Of a stretch of DNA of 64,000 bases, positions 7,330 through 18,230 are shown in pieces. A program made the translations under genes and the position numbers. Each line of letters opens with the position of its first letter. The stretch's first letter is position 1. Origin of the DNA: Qipengyuania soli (GTDB lineage: Bacteria > Pseudomonadota > Alphaproteobacteria > Sphingomonadales > Sphingomonadaceae); the NCBI RefSeq assembly GCF_015529805.1, contig NZ_CP064654.1, positions 2,480,001-2,544,000 on the forward strand, read 5' to 3'. The notes beneath the pieces are model-generated. The model did not search any database and was not told the DNA's origin. It was given only the letters and a program-made list of their open reading frames with translations.

Positions 7330-7811
7330 CAGCTTTCGGGACGCTCCGTCACCGCGGCGCTGCGCCTGGCACGCCAGTCCTGAAGGCGCTGCGACAGTGC
7401 GGCATCATGGTTGGCGAGGATAGCGGCGGCGAGCAGGCCAGCATTGGTCGCGCCGGCCTTGCCGATGGCGAGAGTGCCGACGGGTACTCCTGCGGGCATC
7501 TGGACGATCGAGAGCAGGCTGTCCTGACCCGAAAGCGCCTGTGACTGGACCGGCACGCCGAGCACCGGGACATGGGTGAGAGCGGCGATCATGCCAGGCA
7601 AATGAGCCGCACCGCCTGCGCCAGCGATGATGACTTCGAAGCCGGCCGCAGCGGCGCCCTTGGCGAATTCGTACATGCGGTCCGGCGTACGGTGGGCGGA
7701 AACGATGCGGACATCGGTTTCGACTCCCAGTTCCCCAAGCACCTCGGCGGCGCAGGTCATGGTCTCCCAGTCCGACTGGCTGCCCATCACGATTGCTACC
7801 TTGGCCGTCAT
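7329..7811 (-). CDS. purE: N5-CAIR mutase, PurE catalytic subunit
   Basis: Rearranges N5-CAIR to CAIR, the step after PurK. The 160-residue form starts at the ATG at 7811, giving [18 protein letters not shown]; the longer frame upstream would run into gpmA and is rejected. Signatures: [15 protein letters not shown] and [11 protein letters not shown] around the active-site histidine. The start is separated from the gpmA stop by one base, and the stop shares a base with purK. This is the class I (bacterial) PurE form. Confidence 0.97.
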
Positions 7812-14198: not shown

Positions 14199-15128
14199 AT
14201 GAAAACTCTCGTCTGGGTGGAACACGACAACGCCCACATGAAGGACGCCACTCTGGCTGCAGTTACTGCCGCCTCGAAGCTCGGCGACGTCCACCTCCTC
14301 GTCGCCGGCAAAGGTTGCCGCGGGGTGGCTGAGGAAGCCGCCAAGGTCGCCGGCGTCGGCAAGGTGCACGTCGCCGATGACGCCGCCTACGAGCATGCAC
14401 TGGCCGAGAACGTCGCTCCGCTCGTCGTCGACCTGATGGGTCACCACGATGCCTTCGTCGCGCCGGCCACCACCACCGGCAAGAACATTGCGCCGCGCGT
14501 CGCCGCACTGCTCGACGTGATGCAGATTTCGGACATCCTCTCGGTCGAAGGTGACAAGACATTCACCCGTCCGATCTATGCCGGCAACGCCATCGCTACT
14601 GTGGAATCGAGCGACCCCAAGCTGGTCATCACCGTGCGCGGTACCGCCTTCGACAAGGCGGCGACCGAAGGCGGTTCGGGCACCATCGAGGACGTCCCCT
14701 CGACCGGTGACGCCGGCACGTCGACCTTCGTCTCGGCCGAAATCGCCAAGAGCGAACGTCCGGAACTCACCAGCGCCAAGGTCATCGTTTCGGGTGGCCG
14801 CGCGCTCAAGGACTCCGAGACCTTCCAGGAAGTCATCATCCCGCTCGCCGACAAGCTCGGCGCGGGCGTCGGCGCCAGCCGCGCGGCAGTCGACGCGGGC
14901 TATGTCCCCAACGACTACCAGGTCGGCCAAACCGGCAAGATCGTGGCCCCGGAAGTCTACATCGCCATCGGCATTTCGGGCGCTATCCAGCACCTTGCCG
15001 GCATGAAGGACTCAAAAACCATCATTGCCATCAACAAGGACGAGGACGCCCCGATCTTCCAGGTCGCGGACATCGGCCTGGTCGGCGATCTTTTCAAGAT
15101 CGTGCCGGAGCTCACCGGAAAGCTCTGA
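14199..15128 (+). CDS. etfA: Electron transfer flavoprotein alpha subunit
   Basis: FAD-binding large subunit of ETF, 309 residues. The C-terminal FAD domain has the expected run: [20 protein letters not shown], then [12 protein letters not shown], then [20 protein letters not shown]. It forms a two-gene operon with etfB and ends at a strong terminator 36 bases downstream. Confidence 0.97.
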
Positions 15129-15164
15129 ATTCACGCAAAGTTTGCAAGTTTTCTTGCATAAGGA

Positions 15165-15192
15165 GGCCCGGGTATTTCGCCCGGGCCTTTTT
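15165..15192 (+). terminator. Rho-independent terminator after etfA
   Basis: Perfect 8-bp stem GGCCCGGG (15165-15172) / CCCGGGCC (15180-15187), loop TATTTCG, then TTTTT. The next plus-strand gene starts only 17 bases after the T run. Confidence 0.93.
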
Positions 15193-15209
15193 CGTTGCAT
15201 GAGGTGTGC

Positions 15210-16322
15210 ATGACCGATCACCTGCCGTCCTATTCGCAGGGAGATGTGAAGCAGGCACTACTCGCCGCGGGTGCCTCGGGCACGATCTATTCGCTGGTCA
15301 TGCCCGAGAGCGAGGCCGTGCTGGCCGAAGTCATGGATGGTGGCGCCGCAGGGCGCGATGCCGGGCTGCTCGAACACTACCGCGAAGCGTGGACCCAGAA
15401 GCAGGACGCGCTGCACGAAGGTTATTTCGAATGCTGGATCGCGTGGTCCGCGCCGGTCGTGAAGTTCGACGCCGCCGCGTTCCCGCACCGCTATCCCACC
15501 GCTGGGGCGAGCGAGGGCATCTTCAAGCTGATGGCGGAATATGCCGCACGGGCGCGGAGCGAAGGATTTGGGCCGACGATCCATATATTCGATGGAGAGT
15601 ACGAGGGGTTCCCTGCCTATGCCGCCAGCCTGGGCCTTCTGCTGGTTCGACACAGCCGTGTGGATTGGCCAGAGGTCGCAAGCCGCGCAGACCGCCATGC
15701 ACAATTCTGGATCAGCCAACCCTCAGCAATCGACGGGAGCGTCTGGCCACATTTCGACGCCTTTGCGCGAAAGCTGGCAGAAGATAGGCCCGACATCGCG
15801 CTCGTCCCCGACCTCACCTATGTCGGGAATGTAGCCCGCGCGTTTGAGGTCGCCATCGACCTGCCCAATGTCACCAACTTCGTATTCAGCCACTCCAAAC
15901 CCTTCGGCGGATACTACCACCGCGTCGGCGGCGTGTTCTCGCGCAAGGAGAGTCCGTCGCTGTTCGGAAACAAGTGGTTCAAGAACCTCCTCAGCCTTGC
16001 CTGGGGCAGCGCGATGATGGACCGCTTTGGTGTCCACGAGCTGCCCCGCCGCTATGCCGGGGTCCAAGCGGAAGCGACACGACGAATCGGGCACCTGCTC
16101 GGCGTCAGGAACCTCGCGCCCGCCGACGTGAACCTGCTCGCTACCGCACCCGTCTCCGATGCCGACAGCACCTTGGTGCGCATGCTCCATCGCGGGTCGG
16201 GCGACGAGGCCGTCGTCCGCCTTTGCGCGACCCCCGCCATGGCGGCCCTTATCGATCCCAAGCTGGCCGCGAGCACCGCGCCGCAGCTCCTTGAGCGCTG
16301 GCGAGCGGAGGGCCTCGCATGA
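15210..16322 (+). CDS. PLP-dependent aminotransferase-like protein (fold type I), unknown substrate
   Basis: 370 residues with the layout of a fold-type I PLP enzyme but no subfamily I recognise. TAGASEGIF at 97-105 looks like the phosphate-cup loop. PDLTYVG at 200-206 places an Asp (D201) where the pyridine-N ligand is expected. SHSKPFGGYYHRVGG around 227-241 puts Lys230 as the likely Schiff-base lysine. The N-terminal quarter is atypical and contains FECWIAWS. The ATG at 15210 is preferred; an upstream in-frame TTG at 15195 lies almost in the etfA terminator. The stop overlaps the next gene by 4 bases (ATGA), so the two are coupled. Function is not assigned. Confidence 0.75.
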   Translation: MTDHLPSYSQGDVKQALLAAGASGTIYSLVMPESEAVLAEVMDGGAAGRDAGLLEHYREAWTQKQDALHEGYFECWIAWSAPVVKFDAAAFPHRYPTAGASEGIFKLMAEYAARARSEGFGPTIHIFDGEYEGFPAYAASLGLLLVRHSRVDWPEVASRADRHAQFWISQPSAIDGSVWPHFDAFARKLAEDRPDIALVPDLTYVGNVARAFEVAIDLPNVTNFVFSHSKPFGGYYHRVGGVFSRKESPSLFGNKWFKNLLSLAWGSAMMDRFGVHELPRRYAGVQAEATRRIGHLLGVRNLAPADVNLLATAPVSDADSTLVRMLHRGSGDEAVVRLCATPAMAALIDPKLAASTAPQLLERWRAEGLA

Positions 16323-17218
16323 GGGCCGATCGCATCGACCTGCTGATCTCGCGCGACGAAATCCACGATTACGTGATGAACCTTTGGGCGGACGGCCCGA
16401 TCGCCGAGTCGCACCGCAAGGGCGGGATGGTTCACGATATCGTCGATCGCTTCGGCAAGGTCCCGCGGTTTTTCTACGAACCATCGGAGCCGGAAATCGA
16501 GTGGACGCACTTCTCAACCTGGTGGGGCGGCATCCTGCTGTGCGACTACGACAACCCGCATATCCGCGACTTGCGCTACCTCCACGAGATCTACCATGCC
16601 GCCACGCTGCCCTATTTACGCGATTGCAGTGTCGCGATGCTGGAATCGAAGAACTTCGCCAACGAGCGGCAGGCTTCCACGCTGACCGAAATGGCGATTT
16701 ATCTCGAGCTGCCCGAGCTGCGCAAACTGACCTTCGACCACCCCATCTTCATGGATCGCTTCCTCTATCCGACAGGCGACTTTTCACGACCCGACCGACA
16801 GCTTGTCGACCATTGGAAGGCCGACAGCCGCACGACCTTCGACTTCCTCCTCGAACAGCGACGGAAGGTCATCGAGGCACCGGTCAGCGAGATTGATCCT
16901 GCTGATCCGCAGGTGATCTGGCTGAGGCGCTACGGCGAACAGGGTCGCAACTGGGTTCGTATCTGGAGCGAGCGCTATGGCGAGGTGGAGAACGCCATGC
17001 TCACGCTCATCGAACGTAGCGCCGCGGGCGAGCGCAAAGCGGCCGGCCGCAACCATCTTGCCTGGCTCCTCTCGGACGTGGTCAGCGAGGGAACAGGCGT
17101 ACCTTTCCAACGCGAGGCGCGTGCCTTCCGCGATGCTTTCGACGCGCTGGTCACTGCCTACGACGCTGCCATGACCGAGAGCGGTGAGACCGCGGTCAAA
17201 GGCAAGGCGCCCGGCTAA
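16319..17218 (+). CDS. Unknown protein with HExxH motif, coupled to the aminotransferase-like gene
   Basis: 299 residues, soluble, no signal or membrane segment. I do not recognise a family. The most notable stretch is a Trp-rich segment (EWTHFSTWWGG, about 61-71) followed by H89-E90-I-Y-H93, an HExxH arrangement, with glutamates at 110 and 116 and further His/Asp pairs (DH at 140-141 and 164-165). This could be a metal site of a zinc hydrolase, or of an iron/di-metal helical enzyme, where E-x-x-H is also used. Helical, Arg/Glu-rich C-terminal half. The ATGA overlap and lack of other partners imply it works with the upstream PLP enzyme. Codon use matches its neighbours. Confidence 0.7.
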   Translation: MRADRIDLLISRDEIHDYVMNLWADGPIAESHRKGGMVHDIVDRFGKVPRFFYEPSEPEIEWTHFSTWWGGILLCDYDNPHIRDLRYLHEIYHAATLPYLRDCSVAMLESKNFANERQASTLTEMAIYLELPELRKLTFDHPIFMDRFLYPTGDFSRPDRQLVDHWKADSRTTFDFLLEQRRKVIEAPVSEIDPADPQVIWLRRYGEQGRNWVRIWSERYGEVENAMLTLIERSAAGERKAAGRNHLAWLLSDVVSEGTGVPFQREARAFRDAFDALVTAYDAAMTESGETAVKGKAPG

Positions 17219-17259
17219 CCGGCCCGCTCCATGTCGTATTCGTACTCGCAAAGGTGACA

Positions 17260-17275
17260 CAGCCTTTCTAGGCTG
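17260..17275 (+). other. Small perfect hairpin after the two-gene unit
   Basis: CAGCCT (17260-17265), loop TTCT, AGGCTG (17270-17275). There is no T run after it, so it is a weak terminator at best. It lies 42 bases after the HExxH gene stop and 28 before the next ATG. Confidence 0.3.
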
Positions 17276-17303
17276 ATCCGGATTTGAAAGTTTGGGGTCG
17301 CAA

Positions 17304-18230
17304 ATGGTTACAAAATCACTCTTGGCATCGGCATGCCTTTCGCTGGCAATTGCACCTGTAGCGGCATGGGGCGCAGACAGGGCTCCGATCGTGCTCAAGC
17401 CGATAGGCCAGTGGAACCTGGACATGGGCGAAAACAAATGCCGCATCGCACGTGTGTTCGGTAGCGAAGAGCAGAAGGCCGCATTCTATCTTGAACAGTG
17501 GTCGCCATCTGAGGAAGCCGATTGGGCCGTTGCGGCACGCGAGGTCGCCGGGTTTCGCAGCGATCGGAAGACCACTTATGCGTTCGGCCCTGGCGGCAAG
17601 AGCGATGATTTCGAGTTCACCAAAACAAGTTTCGGCGACTTCGGGAGTCTCGTTGGCGCCAGAAGCAAGATCGTGAGTGAAGACCCTTCGCAAGAGGATA
17701 TGGACTCGAACGATGATGACGAGCGTGACTGGCAAGCGCGTCCTCGCGGACTCGAGCAACTCGATTCCGACCGCGCTGCCCAAATAACTTCGCTGACATT
17801 ATCGCAGTCGGGCCGAACGGATGTGATCATCGAAACGGGAGGTCTGAAACCGGTCCTCGCTGCGATGAATGCATGCATGGAGGACCTCGTTAGGCACTGG
17901 GGCCTCGATCCGGCGGAGCAAAGGAGGGTAGTGAGCCCTCCCAAGGCCACCAACATGCCCAAGGTGGTCCAATACATAATGAGCACCTATCCTGCAGGGG
18001 CGCTGAGAAAAGGTGCCCAGGCCACTTTCCACTTGCGGATCATGGTGGGTACCAATGGCGCGGTCGAGGAGTGCGTCCTCACCAACCAGACCCTGGCCGA
18101 GGATTTCGACATGAAACGCCATCCCTGCTTCGCATTTACGACGCGAGCGGTAATGGAGCCTGCACGAGACGCCGCCGGCGAGCCTGTCAGGTCATTCTAC
18201 ACCGCTCGGATCGCCTATCGGATCGGATGA
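17304..18230 (+). CDS. Secreted protein with TonB C-terminal-like domain
   Basis: 308 residues. A signal peptide is evident in the first ~24 residues (basic start, LLASACLSLAIAPVAAWGA). The middle is polar and has an acidic run (DSNDDDERD). The last ~85 residues look like a TonB_C fold: HLRIMVGTNGAVEECVLTNQ, then RAVMEPARDAAGEPVRSFYT. There is no N-terminal TonB-style membrane anchor with a proline-rich spacer, so this is not a classical energy transducer; it belongs with secreted 'TonB-C' proteins that I recall as frequent in sphingomonads. The ATG at 17304 is used; the ribosome site is weak. Function unknown. Confidence 0.75.
   Translation: MVTKSLLASACLSLAIAPVAAWGADRAPIVLKPIGQWNLDMGENKCRIARVFGSEEQKAAFYLEQWSPSEEADWAVAAREVAGFRSDRKTTYAFGPGGKSDDFEFTKTSFGDFGSLVGARSKIVSEDPSQEDMDSNDDDERDWQARPRGLEQLDSDRAAQITSLTLSQSGRTDVIIETGGLKPVLAAMNACMEDLVRHWGLDPAEQRRVVSPPKATNMPKVVQYIMSTYPAGALRKGAQATFHLRIMVGTNGAVEECVLTNQTLAEDFDMKRHPCFAFTTRAVMEPARDAAGEPVRSFYTARIAYRIG

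Follow-up and report, generated by a model that had tools for sequence, protein, structure and literature searches.

Two adjoining genes behind etfA in the 64,000-nucleotide stretch of Qipengyuania soli DNA analysed here (the window) raise the question whether they form one functional unit and on which kind of compound such a unit could act. An earlier note, made from the sequence of this DNA, had described them as a PLP enzyme and an HExxH protein at 15210-16322 and 16319-17218, overlapping by ATGA, and both the positions and the overlap were confirmed. The following features are referred to below.

15160..15192 (about), forward strand: intrinsic terminator hairpin of etfA (sequence, fold, comparison with genome G015)
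15210..16322, forward strand: gene 1, fold-type-I PLP enzyme of 370 amino acids (ORF, AlphaFold2 model, Foldseek, alignment)
16319..17218, forward strand: gene 2, mostly helical HExxH protein of 299 amino acids (ORF, model, alignment)
16583..16597, forward strand: codons of H89-E90-I-Y-H93, the HExxH motif of gene 2 (sequence, alignment)
16661..16690, forward strand: codons of N115-E116-x-x-A119-S120-x-x-x-E124 of gene 2, candidate third-ligand region (sequence, alignment)

A terminator hairpin directly precedes the gene pair

A strong hairpin with a T run in its 3′ arm is located between the etfA stop (15128) and gene 1; it is missing from the output of a simple sequence scan. The ATG of gene 1 follows only about 17 nt downstream, which leaves no promoter space between the two, and a search of 14600-17800 for sigma-70-like promoters gave none, against 0.6 expected by chance. 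Since the same arrangement of hairpin and gene 1 exists in G015, read-through of the etfA terminator or an unusual promoter is probably needed for expression of the pair. The description of the pair as standing alone behind the terminator is true of the window, though not of all relatives.

Gene 1 is a PLP enzyme outside the named subfamilies searched

The AlphaFold2 model of the gene-1 protein (mean pLDDT 87.7) has a PLP type-I fold. The best Foldseek match was 2gb3 (E 3.9e-13, 17% identity), and a total of 1001 PDB chains were matched at E ≤ 0.001, 2gb3 being followed by many superfamily members of differing activities. As the matches span different activities, the specific function of gene 1 cannot be read from the fold, and at the superfamily level the predicted fold fits transamination, decarboxylation, elimination or condensation alike. 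The aminotransferase 2gb3 was also found with a gene-1 profile among PDB sequences (7.6e-5), and PF00155 (aminotransferase I/II) was weakly matched by 9 of 12 family members (best 1.7e-7, limit E 1), the window protein not being among them. By its predicted structure, gene 1 is thus shown to belong to the PLP fold-type-I aminotransferase I/II superfamily. Nevertheless, neither window protein had a Pfam or NCBIfam match over the curated cut-off (best NCBIfam score for gene 1 10.9 bits versus a cut-off of 321) or a match to PDB sequences better than E 0.3 (searched to E 10). Gene 1 therefore lies outside the named subfamilies searched, as had been proposed.

The alignment of the gene-1 family contains 53 residues that are invariant across 14 rows. 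The PLP landmarks that had been pointed out, K230 within SHSKPFGG and D201, are conserved in 14/14 rows together with Y204, R238 and R337, and in the TAGASEG loop T97, G99, S101 and E102 are invariant across the family. Following a by-eye alignment to aspartate aminotransferase, we take K230 to be the internal aldimine Lys, D201 and Y204 the pyridine contacts, R238 the phosphate Arg and R337 the alpha-carboxylate Arg, and from R337 we infer an alpha-amino acid as substrate. Position 173, which presumably corresponds to the Asn of the NPTG loop (motif matched by eye), holds Ala (11 rows) or Ser (3 rows) in the 14-row alignment and never Asn. This Asn is not obligatory throughout the superfamily.

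Gene 2 is a helical protein with an invariant HExxH motif

The model of the gene-2 protein (AlphaFold2, mean pLDDT 90.3) is almost all helix. It places the HExxH in helix 80-96 and N115, E116, E124 and Y128 in helix 105-130, so that the conserved NExxAS/E124 stretch sits in the next long helix after the motif. Among 16 aligned rows 27 residues are invariant, including H89, E90, H93, N115, E116 and E124. The HExxH (H89-E90-x-x-H93) is thus fully conserved (16/16), as expected from the earlier note, and is not a chance occurrence. Two further residues, Glu110 and Glu116, had been suggested for a metal pocket: E116 is indeed invariant, while Ser occupies position 110 and position 109 is variable. 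Gene 2 is probably a metal protein with H89, H93 and E116 as candidate ligands and E90 as candidate base. An additional motif, E61-x-x-H64, in which H64 is replaced by Gln in 1/16 rows, would together with E90-x-x-H93 allow a dinuclear site instead.

Gene 2 has no recognised family or fold. Foldseek searches with the model gave nothing better than E 1.2 (PDB) or 0.29 (BFVD), that is, no fold match at this sensitivity, by which a new fold is not proven. A gene-2 profile gave nothing better than E 0.81 against PDB sequences, and 14 gene-2 proteins gave nothing better than E 0.043 against Pfam, each weak family being hit by a single member. For eight proteins of both families no match better than E 0.04 was obtained in PHROGs and PADLOC, and neither family matched NAD enzyme families in Pfam or NCBIfam. 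The observations that the earlier note had named as speaking against its reading, namely both proteins in well-characterised families or an unconserved HExxH, were not made.

In gluzincins the HExxH is followed by a conserved Glu downstream on the next long helix. The NExxAS of gene 2, 22 residues after the HExxH and on the next long helix, is consistent with a gluzincin-type peptidase or amidase that would free an amino acid or amine for gene 1, a role compatible with the other readings discussed below. We regard it as less likely than not: gene 2 matches no Pfam family, PDB sequence or fold, a profile comparison with the M3 peptidase PrlC gave a probability of 0.2%, and the possible dinuclear site with E61-x-x-H64 argues in the same direction. 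Assignment of gene 2 to the M3 peptidases was rejected on the PrlC comparison (one protein tested).

The two genes are inherited together

In all 14 carriers of both genes (nine viral contigs and five bacterial genomes) the two genes share a strand, with gene 1 first. They are no more than 505 bp apart in 12 of these carriers; the distance amounts to 1,450 bp in L010 and 2,828 bp in L006, with other ORFs in between. A similar-looking phage gene lies between the two genes in both of these contigs (L006:7686-9377 and L010:7032-8489). The identity matrices of the two families are correlated with r = 0.90 (91 pairs), which shows joint inheritance and not contact, because relatedness alone yields some correlation. 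Comparing the window with G015, dN/dS values of 0.088 and 0.059 were calculated for the pair genes, rough values since dS is near 1.5; as far as such a sequence comparison goes, they show purifying selection on both genes. In summary, the pair is a real, conserved and mobile two-enzyme unit, mostly found in large viral contigs.

The proposed joint unit is retained with regard to gene order and co-variation among carriers, but not with regard to adjacency across Sphingomonadales. Of 60 genomes of the genus, two carry gene 1; a sample of 398 genomes of the phylum contained it once, in the window's own genome, and most of the carriers found are viral contigs. Gene 2 was present in 2 of 61 relatives, in 2 of 397 genomes of the family (the second carrier being, by its place, the L016 genome) and in 3 of 385 genomes of the class (G000, G947 and G1009, the last by its place identical to the L017 genome). 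The pair as a conserved trait of the order was rejected on this scarcity in the genus, family, class and phylum samples. L016 and L017 were found by a genome-contig scan with a three-sequence gene-2 alignment, which uses short exact patterns and may miss other carriers. In total, the pair occurs in five bacterial genomes, representing four distinct sites. The window groups with G015 and L016 in a single clade with good support. L017 and G947 lie outside it, their own places being weakly supported.

For the insertion site, 30 loci from 59 etfA-bearing genomes were compared, two of the 30 being carriers. In all 28 pair-less relatives the gene directly after etfA is TonB-like (24 relatives) or of the DUF445 type (4 relatives), and the match to the next gene begins 66-228 bp after etfA. 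The simplest explanation of this pattern is that the pair was inserted in an ancestor shared by G000 and G015; repeated loss is the alternative. The GC content of the pair is unremarkable compared with its surroundings, and searches of plasmids and phages with both window proteins (E up to 0.01) gave nothing. The TonB-like gene downstream of etfA (17292-18230 in the window) is itself strongly variable in the genus (21-50% identity); it is doubled in some relatives and missing in others, which marks a variable site.

Two other bacterial loci have neighbours of their own. In L016 a FabK/nitronate-monooxygenase-like gene (L016:5469-6893; 27 bits, far below the NCBIfam cut-off), without a relative near the other pair carriers, ends 7 bp before gene 1. 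In G947 a gene whose product looks by eye like the CinA N-terminal domain (L075:7109-7882) is located divergently 52 bp upstream of the pair; this domain has been linked to ADP-ribose.

Large viral contigs are the main reservoir in this survey

Scans with alignments revealed gene 2 in 11 IMG/VR contigs of 40-578 kb, whereas a scan with a single gene-2 sequence gave nothing. An intact gene 1 is present in 9 of these 11 contigs. G482 carries gene 2 without gene 1, and in G486, a 128-kb viral contig, a gene-1 remnant lacking the catalytic core (L030, about 7404-7691) lies beside an intact gene 2. Two contigs have phage hallmarks named by PHROGs: in L014 a tail-fibre gene lies near the pair, and the G476 contig encodes a head-maturation protease. 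PHROGs was run on ten phage-flank proteins and named a hallmark in these two contigs only, so that the phage identity of the other nine is the IMG/VR classification, and several of them may be fragments. A scan of the viral contigs with a ribonucleotide-reductase protein, made to collect comparable huge phages, yielded one contig (59 kb) besides that of the query. The main reservoir of the pair in this survey is viral and consists of large contigs.

Among 50,697 catalogued phage records no relative of gene 2 was found (four hits, none better than E 0.7). For gene 1 a single distant relative turned up, encoded by Pelagibacter phage Mosig. Within L069:4579-10832 this short relative is surrounded by oxygenase-, desaturase-, FMN-reductase- and peroxiredoxin-like genes, and molybdenum-cofactor-like genes adjoin the region.

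The gene pair has a suggestive link to NAD metabolism

In L017, an alphaproteobacterial MAG, the genes for PRPP synthetase, NAPRTase, nicotinamidase, an HD-domain protein and NadE are followed by gene 1, gene 2 and the gene for NadD. This is a Preiss-Handler NAD operon (L017:3-9612), with 4-bp overlaps between the NadE gene and gene 1 as well as between gene 1 and gene 2. The NadE-like protein of this operon is a divergent protein of 896 amino acids carrying an insertion; it has no relative in the viral contigs, two partial matches in phages and 22 in plasmids. The same MAG also has NadA. NAD genes adjoin the pair in one of the five bacterial genomes, and a search of the viral sequence next to the pair, covering up to 8 kb on either side, found no relatives of the L017 NAD genes.

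Elsewhere in the viral carriers, PF04095 (NAPRTase/NAMPT) was detected in 5 of 11 (G476, G477, G480, G482, G484). Typing of three of these proteins revealed an NAPRTase in G476 and G482 and a PRK09198-type enzyme, read as NadV-like, in G484. Nicotinamidase-, NadE-, NadD- or NMNAT/Nudix-like genes, recognised partly by eye, lie near the PF04095 genes. PF02540 is clearly present in 4 of the 11 carriers and weakly in a fifth, and PF01467, a family broader than NMNAT, in 6. PF04095 and PF02540 are both missing from 6 of the 11, including contigs of 415 and 437 kb, and two huge carriers have no NAPRTase, NadE or PF01467 match. Large viral contigs (L061, L062, L063, L064, L065) encode much of the pathway from nicotinate or nicotinamide to NAD, comprising NAPRTase or a NadV-like enzyme, NadD or NMNAT/Nudix, NadE and nicotinamidase-like proteins.

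When the 50,697 phage records were searched by tblastn, 13 matched one NAPRTase query and 28 one NadE query; the contrast to the carriers is a rough one, as it sets HMM searches against single-query tblastn over phages of all sizes, and the NAPRTase query need not find NadV-type enzymes such as that of carrier G484. Agrobacterium phage Atu_ph07 has NAPRTase and NadE and no match to the pair; thus, NAD genes also occur in huge phages without the pair. NadA was found in G000, G015 and both MAGs as well as in 59 of 60 genomes of the genus. Since all four carrier genomes tested possess NadA, the pair is not a substitute for de novo NAD synthesis, and this role was rejected. Taken together, the gene neighbourhoods make a link of the pair to NAD suggestive. 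The earlier note had named neither this link nor the one to phages.

These contexts bear on a further reading, to which we give appreciable although tentative weight: the module may make or tailor a non-proteinogenic amino acid or a small amine, for example in the modification of nucleic acids, the cell surface or peptides, with NAD neighbours that are coincidental in large genomes. It would account for the two huge carriers without NAPRTase, NadE and PF01467, for the lack of any recognised NAD biosynthesis gene beside the pair in 4 of 5 bacterial genomes and 3 of 4 sites (partly by eye) and for the oxygenase-, desaturase- and FMN-reductase-like genes around the gene-1 relative of Mosig. It is harder to reconcile with the overlap with nadE inside the L017 Preiss-Handler operon and with the scarcity of NAPRTase in catalogued phages (13 of 50,697 records).

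A role against host defence, in which phages would use the pair to break down or restore a signal or product that immunity derives from NAD, and bacteria would have acquired a copy, appears quite improbable. Phages rebuild NAD after defence according to the accessible parts of two studies (PMC12774641, PMC13232231), and 5 of the 11 viral carriers also encode NAD-salvage enzymes. However, the accessible text of PMC9503650, PMC7824862, PMC13232231 and PMC12774641 does not mention such enzymes, and eight proteins of both families had no match in PADLOC, which lists defence and not counter-defence.

A possible two-step pathway and its relation to known systems

The pair travels together mainly in giant phages and once in an NAD operon and therefore resembles an undescribed two-step pathway exchanged between phages and bacteria. 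With somewhat less than even confidence we favour a mobile two-enzyme module of large phages and a few Alphaproteobacteria that acts on an alpha-amino acid in an auxiliary branch of NAD metabolism. Gene 1 would be a PLP enzyme of the aminotransferase I/II superfamily binding an alpha-amino acid through R337. Gene 2 would be a helical HExxH metalloenzyme that acts on what gene 1 consumes or releases; its metal would probably be bound by H89, H93 and E116, and E90 would serve as the general base. The module would reside in large phages, from which it may have entered a few Alphaproteobacteria. Most likely it would form an auxiliary NAD branch, producing or processing an amino-acid-derived compound that enters or leaves the Preiss-Handler route. 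As a more specific version, the PLP enzyme together with a metalloenzyme of new fold could attach an amino acid to a pyridine-nucleotide intermediate or release it from one, and so yield a modified NAD or precursor that evades host defences or enzymes, a huge-phage NAD branch that we consider improbable.

The two co-varying families, one of them without recognised family or fold, are easily missed because they are rare in bacteria and, in the 50,697 phage records, either lacking (gene 2) or almost so (gene 1), while they are present in uncultivated huge-phage contigs. The pair was not found described in the open-access literature searched, as far as its text was accessible. If it indeed acts on NAD, which is at the centre of antiviral defence, it widens the range of phage chemistry on this molecule. 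Either way, the pair is a small pathway of two proteins that is amenable to expression and assay.

Among known systems, the phage NAD modules (NadV/NadM, NARP1, Preiss-Handler sets) are represented by such enzymes in 5 of the 11 viral carriers, and the L017 pair lies inside one, yet neither pair protein matches any known component. A survey of viral NAD systems covers NadV, NadM and NadR and in its accessible text does not mention an aminotransferase, PLP or HExxH (PMC9503650); the accessible text of a jumbo-phage survey mentions other zincins and no aminotransferase or PLP enzyme (PMC7824862). That PLP chemistry on NAD exists is demonstrated by SbzP of the altemicidin pathway, which uses NAD as a building block (PMC11610977, accessible in part) and serves here as an analogy.

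With the gluzincins gene 2 shares the HExxH and a conserved downstream Glu (E116, 16/16), but it has no zincin fold or family match. The Pfam and NCBIfam libraries include the family of alphaKG-dependent HExxH hydroxylases, which has the HExxH in common with gene 2; no gene-2 match to it above chance was found in these libraries (E up to 10), nor a fold match. This family is IPR026337 (PMC12636437, accessible in part). The closest structure to gene 1 is 2gb3 (T. maritima TM1698), with which it shares the fold, the PLP Lys, the Asp/Tyr pair, the phosphate Arg and the alpha-carboxylate Arg. Unlike the PF00155 superfamily, gene 1 possesses blocks of its own, among them GEYEG and GNxWFK, and carries Ala or Ser in place of the NPTG Asn.
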